This document shows positions 9,979 to 50,999 of a DNA stretch of 58,935 nt, piece after piece; position 1 is the stretch's first letter; each line of letters starts with the position of its first letter. The notes under the pieces are model-generated. The model made no database searches. It had not been told where the DNA came from and was given only the letters and a program-made list of their open reading frames with translations. The translations under genes and the position numbers were made by a program. This DNA comes from Chloroflexota bacterium (GTDB taxonomy: Bacteria; Chloroflexota; Dehalococcoidia; SM23-28-2; RBG-16-64-32): assembly GCA_022561635.1 (NCBI GenBank), contig JADFQV010000005.1:1-58935 (forward strand). Reading direction: 5' to 3'.

Positions 9979-10941
9979 ATGCCAGACCTCTACGGCGCCA
10001 TCGACCTTGGTGGAACCAACGTGCGGGCGGTCATCGCCGGCCTCGACGGCAAGATCAGCGGTGACGACCGGCGCCCGTCGCACGCCAGCGATGGTCTCGA
10101 CGCGACGATTGAGACGCTGCTGGCCTCCCTGGCCCAGGCGTGCTCGGCGGCCGGCGTCGAAGCCAGCGCCCTCGGCGGCCTCGGCGTCGCTACCCCCGGC
10201 TGGGTGGACACGGAACGCGGCATCGTGCCGGCGGCGCCACAGCTTGTCGGCTGGCGGGATGTGCCACTCGTCGAAATGCTGCAAGAGCGCCTCGGCCTCG
10301 CCGTCCGTCTGGAAAACGACGCCAACGCCGCCGCGCTCGGCGAGAACGTCTTCGGGGCCGGGCGCGGCACGCGGCACATGCTCTACATAACGGTAAGCAC
10401 TGGCGTCGGCGCAGGGATCATCGCCGACGGGCGCCTCTACGGCGGCGCGAAAGGTTCCGCCGGCGAGATCGGTCACACGATCGTCGACCCCTCCGGCCCG
10501 CCCTGCGGTTGCGGCAAGCGCGGCTGCCTCGAGTCGCTCTCCTCCGGCACGGCGATCGCCCGCCGGGCGGTGGAGGCCGTGGACCGCGGCGACTCAGCCG
10601 TGCTGGCCGCTATCAGAGAGCGCGAGGGTCACCTCGCCGCGCGCCTTGTCGCCGACGCTGCACGCCAGGGAGACGCGGCGAGCATCGCCATCTACGAGGA
10701 GGCGGGGTTCTTCCTGGGGATCGCACTGGCCAACGCCGTCAACTTGCTCAGCCCCGAGGCGATCGTCCTCGGTGGCGGCGTCATGCAGGCCAAGGATCTC
10801 TTCCTACCGCGCGCCGAGGAGACGATGCGCGATCGGGCGCTGGACGAGCCGTTGAAGCACATGCGCCTCGCCGAAGCCGAACTGGGCGACCGGGCCGGCG
10901 TCATGGGGATGATCGCCCGCGTCGGCCAGCCGGCTGGTTGA
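9979..10941 (+). CDS. ROK-family sugar kinase (glucokinase-like)
   Basis: AIDLGGTNVRA, LENDANAAALGE, ITVSTGVGAGII, zinc motif CGCGKRGCLES. Confidence 0.92.
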   Translation: MPDLYGAIDLGGTNVRAVIAGLDGKISGDDRRPSHASDGLDATIETLLASLAQACSAAGVEASALGGLGVATPGWVDTERGIVPAAPQLVGWRDVPLVEMLQERLGLAVRLENDANAAALGENVFGAGRGTRHMLYITVSTGVGAGIIADGRLYGGAKGSAGEIGHTIVDPSGPPCGCGKRGCLESLSSGTAIARRAVEAVDRGDSAVLAAIREREGHLAARLVADAARQGDAASIAIYEEAGFFLGIALANAVNLLSPEAIVLGGGVMQAKDLFLPRAEETMRDRALDEPLKHMRLAEAELGDRAGVMGMIARVGQPAG

Positions 10942-10947
10942 CGCGGC

Positions 10948-11466
10948 TCAGGCCCGTGCCCGCCGGCGGCGCCAGTGACGGCCCGGACGGCCCTTCTTCG
11001 GCTCTTCCGCCTCCAGCTCCGGCGCCATGTTCGCCCGCTCTCGCTCGACGATCGGCTGGCACACGGAGATGATGCGCGACAGTCGCTCGGCGATCTCGGA
11101 GGCCAGCGCGGCCGATGGCGGGTCATACGGGATCGTTTCGTGCAGACGCGCCCAGGACGCCGTCCATTCCTCTAGCTCAACCTGCGGTCCCAGCTGTGCC
11201 TGGATCTCCGGCATGTATGGCGCGATCAGCTCCGCCCAGCGGTAGGAAAAGTCGTGCGGCCCTTCGAAATGGAGGCCGATCTCGATGCGTTCTGTCTTGC
11301 GCGTCAGGCAGACCTCGTAGTGCACCTTCGGCGAGTGGAAATGCAGCTGGAACCAGACGAAGCGGACGCGGTGGGTGCAGGCTTCACGCAGCGCCGTCGG
11401 CAGCGCGGCCAGAGTCTCCTCTTCGATCCTGTCCATGAACTCGCGGACGCGCATGCGGGGCGGCAT
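10948..11466 (-). CDS. Hypothetical protein
   Basis: 172-aa ORF convergent with ROK gene, ordinary amino acid composition. Confidence 0.6.
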   Translation of the reverse strand: MPPRMRVREFMDRIEEETLAALPTALREACTHRVRFVWFQLHFHSPKVHYEVCLTRKTERIEIGLHFEGPHDFSYRWAELIAPYMPEIQAQLGPQVELEEWTASWARLHETIPYDPPSAALASEIAERLSRIISVCQPIVERERANMAPELEAEEPKKGRPGRHWRRRRARA

Positions 11467-18241: not shown

Positions 18242-19477
18242 ATGGTTACAGCGAACGCAAAGGAAACGAAACTCGAGATCATGCAGGATGGCGGCATCAC
18301 CTCGGCGCAGGGCTTCACGGCCGGCGGCGTCCATGTCGGCGTCCGCGATGACTGGACGAAGCTGGACGTCGGCCTCGTCTACTCGGAGGCGCCGTGCACG
18401 ACGGCCGCTGTCTACACGAGCAACACCCTGAAGGCGGCGCCGCTGCTCCTCACGCGGGAGCACCTGAAGAACGGTAAGGCGCAGGCGATCGTGGCCAACT
18501 CCGGCTGTGCCAACGCCGCCACCGGGCAGCAGGGCGCCGAGAACGCCGTCGCGATGGCGAAGCTCGCCGCCGACAAGCTCGGGGTCGAGCCGAAGGACGT
18601 CGTGGTCGCGTCCACCGGCGTCATCGGCACGCAGCTGCCGATGGACCGCATCGCCAGGGGCGTCGCGGAGACCAAGCTGGCCGGCGACGGCGGCGACGAC
18701 TTCGCGGTGTCGATCATGACGACCGATACCGTGAAGAAGCAGATAGCCGTCAGCTTCGGCGGCTGGACGATCGGCGCTGCTTGCAAGGGTGTCGGCATGA
18801 TCCACCCGAACATGGCGACGATGCTCTGCTTCATGACCACCGACGCCCCGGTCGAGGAGGCGTTCCTCTCGTCGGCGCTGAAGGAGGCGGTGGACGTGTC
18901 GTTCAACATGGTCGACATCGACAACGACACGAGCACCAACGACATGGCGATCGTCCTCGCCAACGGCCTCGCCGGCGGCGAAGCGATCACCGCCGGCCAC
19001 CCGCAGGCGGAGGCGTTCCAGAAGGCCCTGACGCTCGTCTGCACGAGCATGGCGCGGATGATGGTGAGCGACGCCGAGGGCGGCACGAAGTTGATCGAGA
19101 TGAAGGTCGAGGGCGCAGCGAACCCGGCCGACGCCCGCAGGGCGGCCCGTGAAGTCGTGACGTCGATTGGCGTCAAGACCGCGATCTACGGCGAGGACGC
19201 GAACTGGGGCCGCATCCTGGCGGCGATCGGCAACAGCGGTGCAAACTGGGCCGAGCCGACGACCGCGCTCTACCTGCGCCACCCGGACGGTGGCGAGGTC
19301 TGCCTCTACCGCGACGGCGCACCCCAGGATTACGACGAGGCCGAGGCCAAGGCCTGCCTGGCGCCGGCCGAGGTGCTGGTGCGCATCGACCTCGGCCAGG
19401 GCACGGGCGAGGCCACGGCCTGGGGCTCCGACCTTACTGAAGAGTTCGTGCGCCTGAACAGCATGTATACTACGTGA
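18242..19477 (+). CDS. argJ: Bifunctional glutamate N-acetyltransferase/ornithine acetyltransferase
   Basis: KGVGMIHPNMATMLCFMTTDA autocleavage motif; GGAGGAAGAG RBS before ATG 18242. Confidence 0.96.
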   Translation: MVTANAKETKLEIMQDGGITSAQGFTAGGVHVGVRDDWTKLDVGLVYSEAPCTTAAVYTSNTLKAAPLLLTREHLKNGKAQAIVANSGCANAATGQQGAENAVAMAKLAADKLGVEPKDVVVASTGVIGTQLPMDRIARGVAETKLAGDGGDDFAVSIMTTDTVKKQIAVSFGGWTIGAACKGVGMIHPNMATMLCFMTTDAPVEEAFLSSALKEAVDVSFNMVDIDNDTSTNDMAIVLANGLAGGEAITAGHPQAEAFQKALTLVCTSMARMMVSDAEGGTKLIEMKVEGAANPADARRAAREVVTSIGVKTAIYGEDANWGRILAAIGNSGANWAEPTTALYLRHPDGGEVCLYRDGAPQDYDEAEAKACLAPAEVLVRIDLGQGTGEATAWGSDLTEEFVRLNSMYTT

Positions 19478-19502
19478 ACCACGAAATCAGAGGAGGTAAA
19501 GC

Positions 19503-20564
19503 ATGAAATTGATCGTCCTCTTGGTTTTGATCGTCCTGTCGGACTCAGTCAACGCTGCGGCCGACTGGTTTGGGGACGCCGTGGTGGACGTGCTGTACTG
19601 GATTGGCGGCGCCGCGGTCTTCCTGCCCAACTTCGTTGGCGACATAAGTTCGGACGACTGGGTGCTCGCCTTGAGAGCCGTTGGCGCCGTCACCCTGCCG
19701 GTGGCCCTTGCTACATTCGTCTACCGTGAGATACTCGTGGATCGCCGGCGGCAAGAGGATGAAATGGGGATCTTGCGGTCGATGCTCTCGAACTATCGCT
19801 CAATATGTTCACAGCTGGATCAGATGGTCTCACACGATATGACTCGCGAAGTCGTGTCCGCATTGGTGCACTTTCCCGATCCCGATCTGCGTCAGATGCT
19901 TAAAGATGTGCACAGCAAATGTTTTCAGGGCAGACGGCGTGGCAACCTTGAAAAATTGAAGCAATTTCTCAAGGCCAATCGGCGCAAAATCGGAATGCCG
20001 ATACACACGACTCAACTGGAAAGCATCGATGGGAAGCTCGAGCGTTTGGAAGCAGACGCCGCGCATTACCGGCACCGCTACCCTGGCCTGTACAGGGTGC
20101 TGCAATCTGCCCAGGAAGTCATCAAGCACGTCGTAGATGAAACGAGGACGTGGGCTCGAGATGAAGAGACCTGGACCGAGATCATCTTGAAGTTGTATGA
20201 CAAGAAAAGGGCAGTCAAACAGGACGTTTTTAAGGCAGAACTCTCCCAAGCTCTTCTAGATGATCTCAATAATAACCAGGAAAAGAATCAGGAAAACATA
20301 AACGATATTCTCGAGATCCTGACCATAACTGTTCGTGCCTACGTGGCCCTTGACGACAAACGATTGTTCGATCTGTCTGATGATGAGAAGAAGAAGGGCC
20401 TGAAGCCGATCACCCGACCGGACTACGTGGAGGCTCTGACGGAAGCTAAGAGGTGCGTGAAAACGGTATTCGCAAAGACGCAGATGAATTGCACCCACAA
20501 AGTGAAGGAGAGAGATACCGATAGATTGCTACAAACTGTACAAACAGCTGGTCACGCGCATTGA
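19503..20564 (+). CDS. Hypothetical two-TM protein with charged C-terminal region (ORFan)
   Basis: aggaggtaaagcATG RBS; N-terminal hydrophobic segments then Lys/Glu/Asn-rich soluble region; visibly AT-richer than neighbours; sits between argJ and argB. Confidence 0.8.
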   Translation: MKLIVLLVLIVLSDSVNAAADWFGDAVVDVLYWIGGAAVFLPNFVGDISSDDWVLALRAVGAVTLPVALATFVYREILVDRRRQEDEMGILRSMLSNYRSICSQLDQMVSHDMTREVVSALVHFPDPDLRQMLKDVHSKCFQGRRRGNLEKLKQFLKANRRKIGMPIHTTQLESIDGKLERLEADAAHYRHRYPGLYRVLQSAQEVIKHVVDETRTWARDEETWTEIILKLYDKKRAVKQDVFKAELSQALLDDLNNNQEKNQENINDILEILTITVRAYVALDDKRLFDLSDDEKKKGLKPITRPDYVEALTEAKRCVKTVFAKTQMNCTHKVKERDTDRLLQTVQTAGHAH

Positions 20565-21364
20565 ACAGCGGAACAAATCCAAGAACCCCGACTAGCATCG
20601 TCGCCAAGATCGGCGGCTCGACGCTCGGGGATCATGACACGACGCTCGCCGACGTGGCGGAGCTGGCACGCCGTGGGGCGCGGCCCGTGATCGTCCACGG
20701 CGGCGGCGCGCTGATCAGCGATTGGCTGGAGCGTCTCGGCGTGCCGACGAAATTCGAGAAGGGGTTGCGCGTCACCGATGCCGCCTCGCTCGACGTCGTC
20801 GTCGGCGTGCTCTGCGGCCTCGTGAACAAGCGACTCGTCGCGGCGCTCGAAGGCTGCGGCGCATCCGCGATTGGGCTTTCCGGCGCGGACGGTGGCCTCC
20901 TGCAGGCGTCCGTGCGCGATCCGGCGCTCGGCTTCGTCGGCGAGATCACGATGGTCGATCCGACGCCCGTCCTGCGCATCATCGAGGCCGGTGCCGTGCC
21001 CGTGATCGCGCCCGTCGGCATCGAATACAAAGACGGCCACGCCACCGGCCAGCTGCTCAACATCAACGCCGATACGGCGGCCGGCGCGATCGCCGCGGCC
21101 GTCGGCGCAAGTGCGCTCGTCTTCCTCACGGACGTTCCCGGCGTCCAGTCCGACGGGCGCGTCCTGGAGTCGCTCTCAGCGGCGGAGGCGCAGGAGCTAA
21201 CGGGCGCCGGCGTTATCGAAGGCGGTATGATTCCCAAGGTCAAAGCCTGCCTGCAGGCCGCGGCCGCCGGCAGTCGCGCCGTCATCGTCGACGGCCGTGA
21301 AGAGCACGCGCTTATCGGCGTCACAGAGGGCGCGCAGGCCGGGACAAGGGTGGGCCAGGAGTGA
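20561..21364 (+). CDS. argB: Acetylglutamate kinase
   Basis: IVAKIGGSTLGDHD, VIVHGGGALIS, NINADTAAGAIAAAVGASALVFLTDVPGV, IEGGMIPKV; TTG start overlapping preceding stop. Confidence 0.94.
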   Translation: MNSGTNPRTPTSIVAKIGGSTLGDHDTTLADVAELARRGARPVIVHGGGALISDWLERLGVPTKFEKGLRVTDAASLDVVVGVLCGLVNKRLVAALEGCGASAIGLSGADGGLLQASVRDPALGFVGEITMVDPTPVLRIIEAGAVPVIAPVGIEYKDGHATGQLLNINADTAAGAIAAAVGASALVFLTDVPGVQSDGRVLESLSAAEAQELTGAGVIEGGMIPKVKACLQAAAAGSRAVIVDGREEHALIGVTEGAQAGTRVGQE

Positions 21365-22566: not shown

Positions 22567-23774
22567 TGGCTGAGAAGATCATTCTGGCGTACTCCGGCGG
22601 GCTGGACACGGCCGTCGCCATACGCTGGCTCAAAGAAGAGAAGGGATACGACGTCATCGCTTTGACCGTCGACGTGGGCATGGACCGCCAGCGTGAGGAG
22701 CTGCAGTCGCGGGCGATGGCCGCCGGTGCCGCCGGCTTCGAGTGGAGCGAGGTGCAGGACGACTTCGTGCGGCACTTCGTCTTCCCGGCGGTGATGGCCG
22801 GCGCCCAGTACCAGGGCGTCTATCCCCTGGCCACCGCTCTCTCCCGGCCGCTGATCGCCCGCGAGATGGTCAAAGCCGCCCGCCGCGAGGGCGCCACAGC
22901 CGTCGCCCACGGCTGCACCGCCAAGGGCAACGACCAGGTGCGCCTCGACGTCTCCGTGCAGGCGCTGGCGCCCGACCTGGCGATAGTCGCGCCGCTGCGT
23001 GAGTGGGAGATGGACCGCGAGTCCGAGATCGACTACGCGCACGAGCACAACATCCCGATCAGCGTCACCAAGAAGAGCCCCTACAGCATCGACGAGAACC
23101 TCTACGGCCGCAGCATCGAGACCGGCCCGCTCGAAGACCCGTGGGCGGAGCCGCCGGACGACGTCTGGCTCTGGACGAAGTCGCCCGCCGACGCTCCGGA
23201 CGAGGCGATCTACGTGGAGATCGGCTTCGAGCAGGGCGTTCCGACAACGCTCGACGGCAAGGCGACTGATCCTGTGGACCTGATCAACTCTCTCAACAAG
23301 ATCGCCGGCGAGCATGGCGTCGGCCGCATCGACACGATCGAGGACCGCCTCGTCGGCATTAAGTCGCGTGAGGTCTACGAAGCGCCGGCCGGCGTCACGC
23401 TATTGGCCGCCCACGGCGCCGTGGAGTCGCTTGTCCTCTCGAAAGAGCAGCGGCGTTTCAAGGCGCAGGTCGCGCAGGAGTACGCGGACCTCGTCTACAA
23501 CGGGCTCTGGTACAGCACGCACCATCAGGACCTGCAGGCCTACATCCAGAGCACGCAGCGCTACGTCAGCGGCACGGCGCGTCTCAAGCTGCACAAGGCC
23601 ACCGCCACCGTCGTCGGGCGCAAGGCGCCGCGAAGCCTGTACGACTTCGAGCTGGCGACCTACGATAAAGCCGACCAGTTCGACCGCACGGCCGCCGTCG
23701 GCTTCATCAACATCTGGGGCCTGCCGCTGAAGGTGCAGTCGCAAGTGCAGCCAAGTGAGGAGCTGAAGGAATGA
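22566..23774 (+). CDS. argG: Argininosuccinate synthase
   Basis: KIILAYSGGLDTAVAIRWLKEEKGYDVIALTVDVG, AHGCTAKGNDQVRLDV. Confidence 0.97.
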   Translation: MAEKIILAYSGGLDTAVAIRWLKEEKGYDVIALTVDVGMDRQREELQSRAMAAGAAGFEWSEVQDDFVRHFVFPAVMAGAQYQGVYPLATALSRPLIAREMVKAARREGATAVAHGCTAKGNDQVRLDVSVQALAPDLAIVAPLREWEMDRESEIDYAHEHNIPISVTKKSPYSIDENLYGRSIETGPLEDPWAEPPDDVWLWTKSPADAPDEAIYVEIGFEQGVPTTLDGKATDPVDLINSLNKIAGEHGVGRIDTIEDRLVGIKSREVYEAPAGVTLLAAHGAVESLVLSKEQRRFKAQVAQEYADLVYNGLWYSTHHQDLQAYIQSTQRYVSGTARLKLHKATATVVGRKAPRSLYDFELATYDKADQFDRTAAVGFINIWGLPLKVQSQVQPSEELKE

Positions 23775-24235
23775 GCGGCGAAGTCCTGCACATTCATGTC
23801 GCGGCCACCGCCGAAGGCGAACCCACGCCCGTGACTTCGGTCCGGGCGGAAGCCGGGCGTGGCCTCCAGGGCGATCGCTACTACGCACGCGCCGGCACGT
23901 ACTCCGAGAAGGGCGGGCCCGGCCGCGAAGTTACGCTGATCGCCAGCGAGGCGATCGAGGCGCTGGAAGCTGAGTTCGGCGTCAAGCTGGCGCCGGGCCA
24001 ATCGCGACGCAACATCACTACGCTAGGCATCGATCTGAACGAGTTCGTGGACAAGGAGCTGCGCGTGGGTGGGGCCGTGCTCCGCGGCGTGAGGCTGTGC
24101 GAGCCGTGTGACCACCTTGAGGGTCTCGTCGGTCAGGCGAACACGATGCGCGGTCTCGTGCACCGTGGCGGCCTGCGCTGCGACATCGTCTCCGGCGGCA
24201 TCATTCGCGTCGGTGACCAAATCACGCCTGCCTGA
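23771..24235 (+). CDS. MOSC domain-containing protein
   Basis: GLQGDRYYARAGTYSEKGGPGREVTLIASEAIEAL...LAPGQSRRNITTLGIDLNEFV; ATGA overlap with argG. Confidence 0.85.
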   Translation: MSGEVLHIHVAATAEGEPTPVTSVRAEAGRGLQGDRYYARAGTYSEKGGPGREVTLIASEAIEALEAEFGVKLAPGQSRRNITTLGIDLNEFVDKELRVGGAVLRGVRLCEPCDHLEGLVGQANTMRGLVHRGGLRCDIVSGGIIRVGDQITPA

Positions 24236-46148: not shown

Positions 46149-48701
46149 ATGGCCAGGATATATCGCGTTCGCCGCAAGCGGGCACGACAGGTAAACGTGC
46201 GGCGCGGCCGCACCTTTCGCTCTCGATTGACGTCGTTCCTCACGTTAATGCTCTTCGTGGGCGTCCTCGGCATGATCGCCATCGGCGTTGCCAGCTTCTT
46301 CGTCTACCAGGGCTACGCTAACGACCTGCGCGAGCCCCAAGAAGTGATCAACTCGAACAGCATCGGGTCGAGCATCATCTACGACCGTAACGGTACCAAG
46401 CTGTACGAGTACGTCCCAGAGTTCGAGGGGCTGCGCGATCCGGTGCCCCTGGCCGAGATCTCGCCGTACCTCCTCGCCGCCACGATCGCCACGGAGGACG
46501 CCAGTTTCTACGAAAACCCGGGCGTCAACTTCAAGGGCCTTGCCCGCGCCGCCTGGGAGAACCTGACGCCGTTCGGCCCCGGCCTCTTTGAAGGCAGTGG
46601 CGGAAGCTCCATCACTCAGCAACTCGCACGCAACATCTACATCGACTTTGACGAGAGATCGGCGCGTGGAAGAACAGGAGTCGAGCGTAAGATCAAGGAG
46701 ACGGTGATCGCCTTCGAGCTCAAACAGAACTACTCCGACGATCAGATCCTGGAGTGGTACCTGAACCAGATCTTCTATGGCGCAAACGCCTACGGTGCCG
46801 AGGCCGCCGCCAACCGGTTCTTCGCCAAGGACGCCAAAGATCTGACGCTCGCCCAGGCCGCGCTCCTGGCGGGACTCCCACAGGCGCCCGGCGACTATGA
46901 CCCCACTAACTCCGACAAGCTCCCCCTCGCCAAGGCCCGCCAGCTCGTGGTGCTGGACCTGATGATCGAGCACCTGAGCGAAGTGAACTCGATCCCGACC
47001 TTCGGCGAAAAGGAAAACCCGTTGCTCACACTCACCGTTGCCGAGATCGAAGCCGCAAAAGACGAACCGTTGGACTACGTCTACACATCGATCGACATCC
47101 TTGCGCCGCACTGGGTCTGGTACGTCGAGGACCAGGTGACGAGGATGTGCCACGCCGGGCTGTTTGAGCCGCCCGGCGAGATCTCCTGCGACAAGGTCGT
47201 GCGCCAGGGCGGCCTCCGCATCACCTCAACTATCGACCTTGGCCTCAGCTCGATTGCCGAGCGGATCATCGACGAAGAGCTCACGCGAACCGAGGCGCAG
47301 TACGGCGGCCACAACGGCTCGCTCGTGGCGATCCGCCCGGGTACCGGCGAGATCCTCGCCTACGCCGGGAGCCGCGATTACGATCGTGAAGACATCGCCG
47401 GCGAGGTCGACATTGCCCGCTCTCTACAGTCGCACGGTTCGACGATGAAGGTGTTCACGTATCTCAAGGCGTTCGAGGACGGCTGGGTACCTTCGACCTT
47501 CGTGGAAGATAAGAAACTCGTACTGGATGTCGGCGGTCAGCCGCGCGCCGTCAACAACTGGAACAACGCCTTCCTGGGCAAGATCACGGTCCGCAAGGGC
47601 CTTTCGGAGTCGGTCAACACCGCCGCCGTGCGCACGCTGATTGACGTGGGCGAAGACCGCATGCGCGAACTCGCTCACCGCATGGGCATCACGGACCTCC
47701 GCCAGGGCGATTGCGGTCCCACGATCACGCTTGGCGCCTGCGAAGTGAAGCTGATCGACCAGACGTTCGCCTACGCCGTGCTCGCTAACAACGGCACGAT
47801 GATCGGCCGCCCGACGTCCGAAGACCTGCCTTCTGACTACCGCCAGCTCGACCAGGTTTCCGTGCTCCTGATCACGGATAGCGGCGGGAACCCCGTCTAC
47901 ACCTTCAGCAACCCCGAAGAAGTGCAGGTGGTCGAGCCTGCCTACGCCTACATGGTCACCGACATCCTCTCCCGAGACGCGATCAATTGGAGCCGGCTGA
48001 CGATCGACCGTCCGGCTGCCTCCAAGACGGGAACCAGCGAAGAGTATCGTGACGGCGTGCTGATGGGCTACACGCCGGACCTGGCCGTCGGCGTCTGGAT
48101 GGGCAACGCCGACAACTCGCCGATGGCCGTGGGCACGTACTCGTCCGTCGGCTCGGGGCCCATCTGGCGTATCTTCATGGAGGAAGCACACGCTTACCTC
48201 GAGCTGGAGCCGCGACCCTTTGAACAACCCGACGATGTCGTGGTCATCAGCTGCGGCGGTCGAAGCGAAATCTTCAAAAACGAAACGCCGACCGTCAAGT
48301 CTGGTGGCTGCAGGGGCCCAGCCGGTTCCGTCGGCGCGACCGCGACGCCATCACCGAAGGGCCCGAGGTTCCCGCCGACTGCCGGCGACCCCACAGCGAC
48401 GCCGACGCCGGGCGCGCCCACTGTCTTCTACTACACCGTCCGCGAGGGTGACACGATTGAGTTCATCGCGACGCTATTCGTCGTCGACGTCGATGACCTG
48501 CGCAAAGCGAACGGCCTCGTCGAAGGCGAGCCCGTCTACGCTGGCGACGTGCTCATCATTCCGGGACAGACGCAGTCCGACCCCATCCCGGATCTTGGGC
48601 CCGAGCCGGATCCCCAACCGGAACCTGAGCCCGAGCCTGAACCCGAGCCCGAACCCGAGCCCGAGCCCGAACCTGAGCCCGACTCGAATTTCGCGCCCTA
48701 G
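46149..48701 (+). CDS. Class A penicillin-binding protein (PBP1A-like) with C-terminal LysM domain and EP-repeat tail
   Basis: TIATEDASFYENPGVNFKGLARA, GGSSITQQLARN, EWYLNQIFYGANAYG; GSTMK, SESVN, KTGTS; YYTVREGDTIEFIATLFVVDVDDLRKANGL. Confidence 0.94.
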   Translation: MARIYRVRRKRARQVNVRRGRTFRSRLTSFLTLMLFVGVLGMIAIGVASFFVYQGYANDLREPQEVINSNSIGSSIIYDRNGTKLYEYVPEFEGLRDPVPLAEISPYLLAATIATEDASFYENPGVNFKGLARAAWENLTPFGPGLFEGSGGSSITQQLARNIYIDFDERSARGRTGVERKIKETVIAFELKQNYSDDQILEWYLNQIFYGANAYGAEAAANRFFAKDAKDLTLAQAALLAGLPQAPGDYDPTNSDKLPLAKARQLVVLDLMIEHLSEVNSIPTFGEKENPLLTLTVAEIEAAKDEPLDYVYTSIDILAPHWVWYVEDQVTRMCHAGLFEPPGEISCDKVVRQGGLRITSTIDLGLSSIAERIIDEELTRTEAQYGGHNGSLVAIRPGTGEILAYAGSRDYDREDIAGEVDIARSLQSHGSTMKVFTYLKAFEDGWVPSTFVEDKKLVLDVGGQPRAVNNWNNAFLGKITVRKGLSESVNTAAVRTLIDVGEDRMRELAHRMGITDLRQGDCGPTITLGACEVKLIDQTFAYAVLANNGTMIGRPTSEDLPSDYRQLDQVSVLLITDSGGNPVYTFSNPEEVQVVEPAYAYMVTDILSRDAINWSRLTIDRPAASKTGTSEEYRDGVLMGYTPDLAVGVWMGNADNSPMAVGTYSSVGSGPIWRIFMEEAHAYLELEPRPFEQPDDVVVISCGGRSEIFKNETPTVKSGGCRGPAGSVGATATPSPKGPRFPPTAGDPTATPTPGAPTVFYYTVREGDTIEFIATLFVVDVDDLRKANGLVEGEPVYAGDVLIIPGQTQSDPIPDLGPEPDPQPEPEPEPEPEPEPEPEPEPEPDSNFAP
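48601..48690 (+). repeat. Coding low-complexity repeat (gagcccgaacct units, EPEPEP)
   Basis: Encodes EPEPEPEPEPEPEPEP tail. Confidence 0.9.
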
Positions 48702-48816: not shown

Positions 48817-49776
48817 GTGGGTGAAGAAGACCGCGGCCGCTCATTCATCCGCCGCCAGCGCCCCGATCTGGGCGACGAGGGGCGCCGGGTCGAGGAACCT
48901 GAGCCTCAGGACGAGAGCCAGCGCCCAGTCGAGGAACCAGAGCGACCACCGCGGGAAGCAAGCGATCGAATCGTCGTCCCCCACCAGGAGCGCGACCGGC
49001 GCGATTCGCCCGTCGATGTCGAGCTGAGAGAAGTGCGTTGGGGGGCGACCTCGCGAGGTGCCTACCTCCGCGTCGTTCCCTCACAGCAGCGCTTCACGCG
49101 CGTCGGCGCCGGCCACATCGCGGCGACCCGCGTCGGCAGCCGTCCCGTCGGCCGCGTCGAGCGGATCGTGCAGGCCGTCAAAGGAACGGTGCTTGGCAGC
49201 CCAATCGCGACCGCGCAGTCGATCCATGAGCGGCTGACGAAGCTTAAAGCGCTCGCCATCCTCGGCTCAGATCCGCTCTCGTCCTCCGCTTACGCCACGG
49301 AAGAGGCGCTGATCCTGCTCACCTTCGCCGGAGCAGCGGGCCTCGACTACCTTCTGCCCATCGGTTTCGTGGTCGCTGCTTTGCTGATCCTCGTCATGAT
49401 GTCTTACCGGCAGACGATCAAGGCCTATCCAGGCGGGGGCGGCGCCTACGCCGTCTCTCACGACAACCTGGGCCGATACCCCGGTCTCGTCGCCGCCGGC
49501 GCGGCACGTCGGGCATCAGGTCGTTCCAGCATCGAGTCACCATACCGCGCTTTCGCCGGGCCCATGCTGGCCTACATCGATAGCCTGGAGCGCGCCGAAG
49601 GGGGCGCTCCGATCACGGTCATCCTGCCCGGCTTCCGGGCGCACCACTGGTGGGAGAGCCTCCTCCACAACCAGGCGATCCGTCGCCTGCGCCCGTTCCT
49701 CGACGAGCACGAGAACGTCCGCATCCTGGACTTCGACTACGACGTGCGCCTGCCTGACCGGGCGCCGCCGGACTAG
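48817..49776 (+). pseudogene. APC-family permease with apparent internal deletion of the transmembrane core
   Basis: N-terminal TMs (LTKLKALAILGSDPLSSSAYATEEALILL...YRQTIKAYPGGGGAYAVSHDNLGRYPGLVAAGA) joined directly to the C-terminal cytosolic domain (AGPMLAYIDSLERAEGGAPITVILPGFRAHHWWESLLHNQAIRRL). Confidence 0.72.
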
Positions 49777-50999
49777 CCGCCGCCGAGGAGCCGGTCAAGG
49801 TCCGCCTGCGACGTGATCGCTGAAGCCTGCCGCACGAACTCGCCGGGCGATCCCGCCCTCTCCAGGAGCGCCGCCAGCTTGGGGCCGATCGGGTCGATCG
49901 AGGCCGGCGTATCCGCATAGAATCCGTAGAATGCGAAGTAGGCTTGGTTCAGCCGGCGGATGTAGCGGCCCTTCGCCTCGAACTCATCGCGCTTGCGCTC
50001 CATCAGCGCCTCTGCCTCCTCGATCCGGCCGGCCGCCAGCAGTTCCTCGACGTCCAAGCGCAGCGCCCGCATCTCGGCGCCGAAGTCGAACGGATCATCC
50101 AGCGGGTCCGGCGCCGCTGACGGCGTCGGGCTCTGGCCGGGCGTCGGTGGCGGTTCAGCCTCCAACGGGCCGTATTTCTCGAAGTATAGGCGCGCCAGCT
50201 CGCTCCCGGCGATGTTGGCGACGCTCTCGTTCAGCGTGCGGGACTCGCCGCCCTTGATGTAGGTGCGGCCCAGTGGGAAGAAGATCAGGTACTGGTGCAG
50301 CCACTCGTGGAACACCGTATCGACGAGGCGTTCGTAGGAGCGGCCCTCCCTGATCACGCTCGGGTACGTCGCCACGCCACCCGTCGTCACGACCAGCGCC
50401 GAGACGTCGGGGTCGTCGGCCTCGACGCCGGCCTCGATAGCGAGCGCCGTCTCGCTCGAGAGACCGGGCGTCAGCAGGTACGACTCGTCCAGATCGATGC
50501 GCTCGCGCGGCGACACTGCGAGGACGCGCGGCGGCGGGTCGATCTCGAAGTCGACCGGCGGGAAGATGAGCCCGAGGTCGCTGAAGAGCGGCGGCTCCAG
50601 CGCCAGGTTCTGCTCCTCCAGCACGGACGTCACGCGCCCTTCGATGATGTCCTCGACGCGCGCTTCCAGGCCGCCTCGTTCGTCCTCGGCTCGCGCCAGC
50701 GCGTCTGAGCCCGGCGCCTCGTTGGCCAGCCGGTCGATCTCGTCGCCCAACTCGAAGTATCGATGCAGCGCTCCGTCATCGCTGCCTTCCTCGTCGCGGA
50801 AGACGCCGCCGATCTTATACAGCCACTTCTGTGGGAGGTGCTTCAGCTCCCACGTGACCAGGTTGAACGAGTTGCGGTTAGCCGCCGCCTCGGCCGCGTC
50901 CGACGGCCCTGTCGCCTCGAAAACCACCGCGGCGCCCACGAGCGCAAAAGCGGCGAGCAGCGTCAGACAGGCGGCGTATGCCGCGATCACGTTTCGCAT
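49773..50999 (-). CDS. Membrane-anchored putative gluzincin-type metallopeptidase (unnamed family)
   Basis: N-terminal TM; LVDTVFHEWLHQYLIFFPLG (HExxH) and downstream NESVANIAGSELA. Confidence 0.75.
   Translation of the reverse strand: MRNVIAAYAACLTLLAAFALVGAAVVFEATGPSDAAEAAANRNSFNLVTWELKHLPQKWLYKIGGVFRDEEGSDDGALHRYFELGDEIDRLANEAPGSDALARAEDERGGLEARVEDIIEGRVTSVLEEQNLALEPPLFSDLGLIFPPVDFEIDPPPRVLAVSPRERIDLDESYLLTPGLSSETALAIEAGVEADDPDVSALVVTTGGVATYPSVIREGRSYERLVDTVFHEWLHQYLIFFPLGRTYIKGGESRTLNESVANIAGSELARLYFEKYGPLEAEPPPTPGQSPTPSAAPDPLDDPFDFGAEMRALRLDVEELLAAGRIEEAEALMERKRDEFEAKGRYIRRLNQAYFAFYGFYADTPASIDPIGPKLAALLERAGSPGEFVRQASAITSQADLDRLLGGG

Follow-up and report, generated by a model that had tools for sequence, protein, structure and literature searches.

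KimA, a member of the KUP family within the APC superfamily, is a K+/H+ symporter that spans the membrane with 12 TM helices (PMC6994465, PMC10284832). Its K+ site comprises D36, Y43, T230 and Y377, and E233 is responsible for proton coupling (PMC6994465, PMC10284832), D36 being an essential, K+-coordinating residue (PMC6994465). A PPAT-like cytosolic domain, formed by residues 462-606, binds c-di-AMP (PMC6994465, PMC10284832).

The window analyzed here, a stretch of 58,935 nucleotides, is the whole of contig C31 in the 1.81 Mb assembly (83 contigs, 84% complete) of a Chloroflexota bacterium (G000). We compared it with three congeners, G001, G002 (Chloroflexota MAG OFTM284) and G003 (Chloroflexi MAG B9T1B11), the last two being metagenome assemblies; completeness across the four genus genomes ranges from 76 to 90%. 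At positions 48817-49776 (+) the window carries a 319-aa ORF, with a GTG start and a TAG stop, which a preliminary description had placed there and read as an APC permease that has apparently lost its membrane core through an in-frame deletion. Both statements are borne out, and the permease can be narrowed to a predicted KimA-type (KUP family) K+ importer. Upstream of it lies an 850-aa penicillin-binding-protein-like ORF (46149-48701, +), and downstream a convergent ORF for a putative metallopeptidase with an HEWLH motif (49773-50999, -), which shares 4 bp with the stop end of the kimA-like ORF. These neighbors, assigned from sequence, are syntenic in G001, G002 and G003, and the window is collinear with G002 contig C4 on either side of the locus. 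Elsewhere along this alignment, the window holds a single 10-bp CTAGTTGCCG and no insert at 704-713, where G002 (C4, ~23132-23838) has a 705-bp insert between direct repeats of CTAGTTGCCG that contains a PIN-domain-like ORF (assigned from sequence), and ~1.1 kb of the window (19476-20587) has no G002 counterpart (107 bp there) within otherwise collinear DNA.

Alignment with G002 revealed that the 319-aa ORF corresponds to two segments of that congener's intact gene, residues 1-229 and residues 664-744, with collinear flanks on both sides. The preliminary description had proposed comparing both halves with a full-length relative and the flanks for synteny, and both comparisons agree with it: the halves match a single 753-codon open frame, at 87% over query residues 1-230 and at 91% over residues 239-319, at sites that stand 1.3 kb apart in G002. 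Window sequences up to 49503 and from 49530 adjoin where G002 has 1301 bp more (L031:8042-9342), reduced to 26 bp in the window (49504-49529), a net loss of 1275 bp or 425 codons. The retained 5' part (48817-49503, +), collinear with residues 1-229 of G002, encodes a hydrophilic N-terminal extension and the TM1-TM2 region, and in the alignment breaks off opposite KimA residue ~113, at the start of TM3. It keeps the codon of D152 (49270-49272, +), which aligns with KimA D36 (PMC6994465), as well as Y159, the equivalent of Y43, and the sole strongly hydrophobic stretch remaining by hydropathy (residues 164-202; 49306-49422, +). The retained 3' part (49530-49776, +) encodes the final 81 residues, equivalent to 664-744 of G002 and to KimA from ~532 to the C-terminus, and includes the LHNQ motif found at the c-di-AMP site of KimA. 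Judging by these alignments, the ORF is the presumptive head and tail of a kimA gene whose middle has been lost in frame. The missing 434 residues were not found elsewhere in the G000 assembly by a sequence search without a positive control of its own (a near-identical full-length query recovered the congener copies) or by a Pfam family search with controls, and their location on another contig was discarded.

The intact congener copy (P0002) is homologous to KimA over both the membrane and the cytosolic domains, its residues 121-720 aligning with residues 5-590 of PDB 6s3k (600 residues, 473 bits, E 1.7e-140). The intact protein scores 92.5 bits against Pfam AA_permease_2, as compared to 10.4 for the window protein (cut-off 27), and NCBIfam yielded no useful match. 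On this homology, the source gene is a KimA homolog, a predicted K+/H+ importer belonging to the KUP family (APC superfamily), normally of ~750 residues. Missing from the window protein are KimA ~114-531, and with them TM3-12, the greater part of the K+ site and roughly half of the cytosolic domain. The 12 TM helices, arranged as a 5+5 LeuT repeat, are reduced to a single hydrophobic segment the length of about two helices; counterparts of D36 and Y43 are present, with those of T230, E233, Y377 and D117 in the deleted stretch; and the PPAT-like c-di-AMP-binding domain (462-606) is left only from ~532 to the C-terminus. The C-terminal soluble domain of the preliminary description is accordingly retained in its C-terminal part, roughly the last half, and not as a whole. 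Because KimA ~114-531 are absent, the window copy could form neither the LeuT fold nor the K+ site nor a complete cytosolic domain, and the anatomy indicates that it should not transport K+.

The junction filler (GCACGTCGGGCATCAGGTCGTTCCAG; 49504-49529, +) is the reverse complement of DNA near the right breakpoint in the congeners. Inverted, it matches G002 at 24 and G003 at 22 of its 26 positions, whereas 300 shuffled versions of it gave 19 matches at most. Its source site stops 10 bp short of the right breakpoint in the congeners, and the sequence shared at the switch points amounts to 2 bp (CG) on the left and 0-1 bp on the right. The filler-encoded residues (ARRASGRSS) are not permease sequence; since the filler is an inverted copy, they represent an antisense reading of the DNA coding for WDDLMPDV in the intact protein. 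The joining residues of the preliminary description are present but neither random nor novel; they derive from nearby DNA copied in inverted orientation, the trace that a template switch or an inversion-deletion event would leave at a junction. The exact junction had no match among GTDB r220 genomes, a set from which its own record was possibly left out.

These observations point to a KimA-type gene recently disrupted through a single complex, frame-keeping event, and now present as a pseudogene or deletion allele, a reading to which we assign a probability of roughly 0.62. The event would most simply be a replication template switch, or else a deletion accompanied by a short inversion. The switch would skip 1301 bp of the gene, copy 26 nt from the opposite strand beside the right breakpoint and then resume on the original strand. 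The ORF would stay open because the net loss of 1275 bp is, by chance, divisible by three and the filler contains no in-frame stop, and the product would consist of TM1-2 and half of the cytosolic domain, with no K+ transport expected. With an intact syntenic ortholog in G002 and essential parts missing, the locus has the properties of a gene-disrupting deletion, and an internal deletion that kept the frame is the best fit among the three options that the preliminary description had offered. A very young broken gene is thus the most likely state of the locus, assembly error being less likely and a working mini-transporter unlikely. The anatomy, the inverted filler, the synteny and the lack of the missing part anywhere in the assembly were observed directly, and we infer the mutational route, the loss of function and the presence of the deletion in the organism rather than in the assembly alone.

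The kimA locus is abnormal in three of the four genus genomes. G001, the congener nearest the window genome (88-90% identity in two flanking genes, versus 84-86% for G002), carries two other deletions in its kimA (L045, G001:C153, 8640-9300), of ~1281 and ~550 bp (67371 to 68652 and 69015 to 69565 in G002 composite coordinates), which leave residues ~430-553. Except at their extreme ends, the surviving pieces in G000 and G001 do not overlap, which indicates separate deletions. The G001 remnant presents L475Q and G500V at columns that are invariant in 13 homologs, and a third change at a column otherwise occupied by E/D, as would be expected of decay. A locus gutted differently, with mutations at invariant sites, favors recurrent real loss. 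In G003, contig C120 (L033) stops at kimA codon 37, and contig C310 (L032) contains an open 944-codon frame in which an agmatinase-like N-terminus (minus strand, roughly 10387-11320) is joined to kimA near residue 95-111, at a VERIVQ stretch; this fusion probably arose as a chimera during the assembly of MAG B9T1B11. The three abnormal loci may reflect repeated loss or the difficulty of assembling this gene.

Across the retained parts, codon changes private to the window genome number 26 silent and one replacement, distributed as 20 and none in the N-terminal part (where G003 is available) and six and one in the C-terminal part. This ratio suggests that the gene evolved under constraint for most of the branch, presumably as an intact gene. 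The selection check that the preliminary description called for hence detects constraint and not decay, in contrast to the G001 remnant with its L475Q and G500V substitutions. The lack of decay in the retained parts suggests that the deletion either arose very recently or does not exist in the organism.

In a class-level survey, 92 of 393 genomes returned matches, and the two halves are joined only in the window genome among the matches listed. Similarly, the short architecture was absent from 61 relatives and 25 order-level genomes, so a widespread short architecture, which the preliminary description had named as evidence against a deletion, was not seen at any of these levels. No viral relatives were found. 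The surveys also identified tandem or neighboring kimA-like gene pairs in related genomes (G011:C22, G013:C33 and G040:C9) and stop codons within kimA-like matches (G026:C183, G120:C2, G097:C33 and G219:C345), the latter being possibly more disrupted copies or frame limits.

KimA seems to be the only recognizable K+ importer of the genus. TrkH and over-threshold Kup were not detected in the four genus genomes (76-90% complete), nor was KdpA in the window genome, the sole genome searched for it; TrkA-C-type matches are present in the window genome. In view of these negative searches, loss of KimA would require a different path for K+ uptake, or an importer gene that the incomplete assemblies lack. 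Such a loss would be costly without an alternative route, and this keeps alive a second, clearly less probable explanation, in which the organism has an intact kimA and the contig was built from a chimeric DNA molecule or from a deletion variant present at low frequency, as an assembly, library or minor-strain artifact. The strong purifying signal in both retained parts and the failure to find other known K+ importer families where searched are in line with this explanation, as are the oddities of the G003 assembly at kimA. Inverted joins with intervening deletions are, moreover, the commonest form of MDA chimeras, making up 85% of 475 (PMC1855051). An ordinary MDA chimera, however, involves one strand switch, and the junction seen here requires two, 26 bp apart. 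The missing part lies on no contig, and the kimA of G001 shows real-looking decay.

A comparison of 175 kb of G000 aligned to G002 served as a control for artifacts. It contains 11 gaps of 150-6000 bp in which G000 is shorter, and the kimA gap is the only one inside a single long ORF; among seven tested fillers of at least 17 bp, that of kimA alone beats its shuffles, and does so in inverted orientation. The assembly is consequently not littered with such scars, and a genome-wide artifact pattern was rejected. The preliminary description had also raised a collapse artifact, which is disfavored because the junction has no long repeat and its filler is inverted; repeats of a length that an assembler would collapse are absent there, and repeat-collapse misassembly was set aside on the lack of repeats at the breakpoints.

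It is highly unlikely that the ORF encodes a functional minimal derivative, another option of the preliminary description, in which a two-helix, half-domain protein would, for instance, partner another transporter in a c-di-AMP-responsive or dominant-negative manner. The preserved frame, the few replacement changes and the LHNQ motif of the c-di-AMP site could be read in its favor, but a frame is retained by chance about one time in three, and the anatomy contradicts function, with 10 of the 12 helices, the equivalents of T230, E233 and Y377 and half of the PPAT-like domain gone. Furthermore, an intact KimA partner is absent from the assembly, and no relative shares the architecture among the matches listed. 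Even harder to credit is the notion that the 319-aa remnant is kept as a functional regulatory membrane peptide, the gutting of the G001 gene representing selection that disarms K+ import and retains fragments. A programmed or phase-variable rearrangement, with the segment reversibly inverted or excised, is the least plausible of all, since the inverted scrap at the junction is offset by breakpoints devoid of inverted or direct repeats (2 bp and 0-1 bp shared), by the absence of an excised segment elsewhere in the assembly and by the different breakpoints of G001.

An annotation pipeline would list this ORF as a small APC permease, and a flag marking it as disrupted kimA is called for. If the deletion is real, an uncultured Chloroflexota bacterium offers a clear case of template-switch deletion, which together with the G001 deletions would indicate repeated loss of what is apparently the only recognizable K+ importer of the genus.

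Compared to KimA (YdaO) of Bacillus subtilis (PDB 6s3k, 8b70 and 8b71), the window protein shares TM1-2, with the D36 and Y43 equivalents, and the C-terminal ~75 residues with LHNQ, but is devoid of residues ~114-531, and intact relatives in this order differ from KimA in carrying a long hydrophilic N-terminal extension. The junction shares an inverted sequence, an intervening deletion and 2-bp microhomology with MDA chimeras (PMC1855051), yet it regains its orientation after 26 bp, and hence involves two switches. As reported for template-switch or microinversion-with-deletion mutations (PMC7954356, PMC8755829), a short inverted copy of adjacent DNA fills the deletion junction; the present instance is a single case, in a bacterial metagenome assembly, with a mechanism proposed from sequence.
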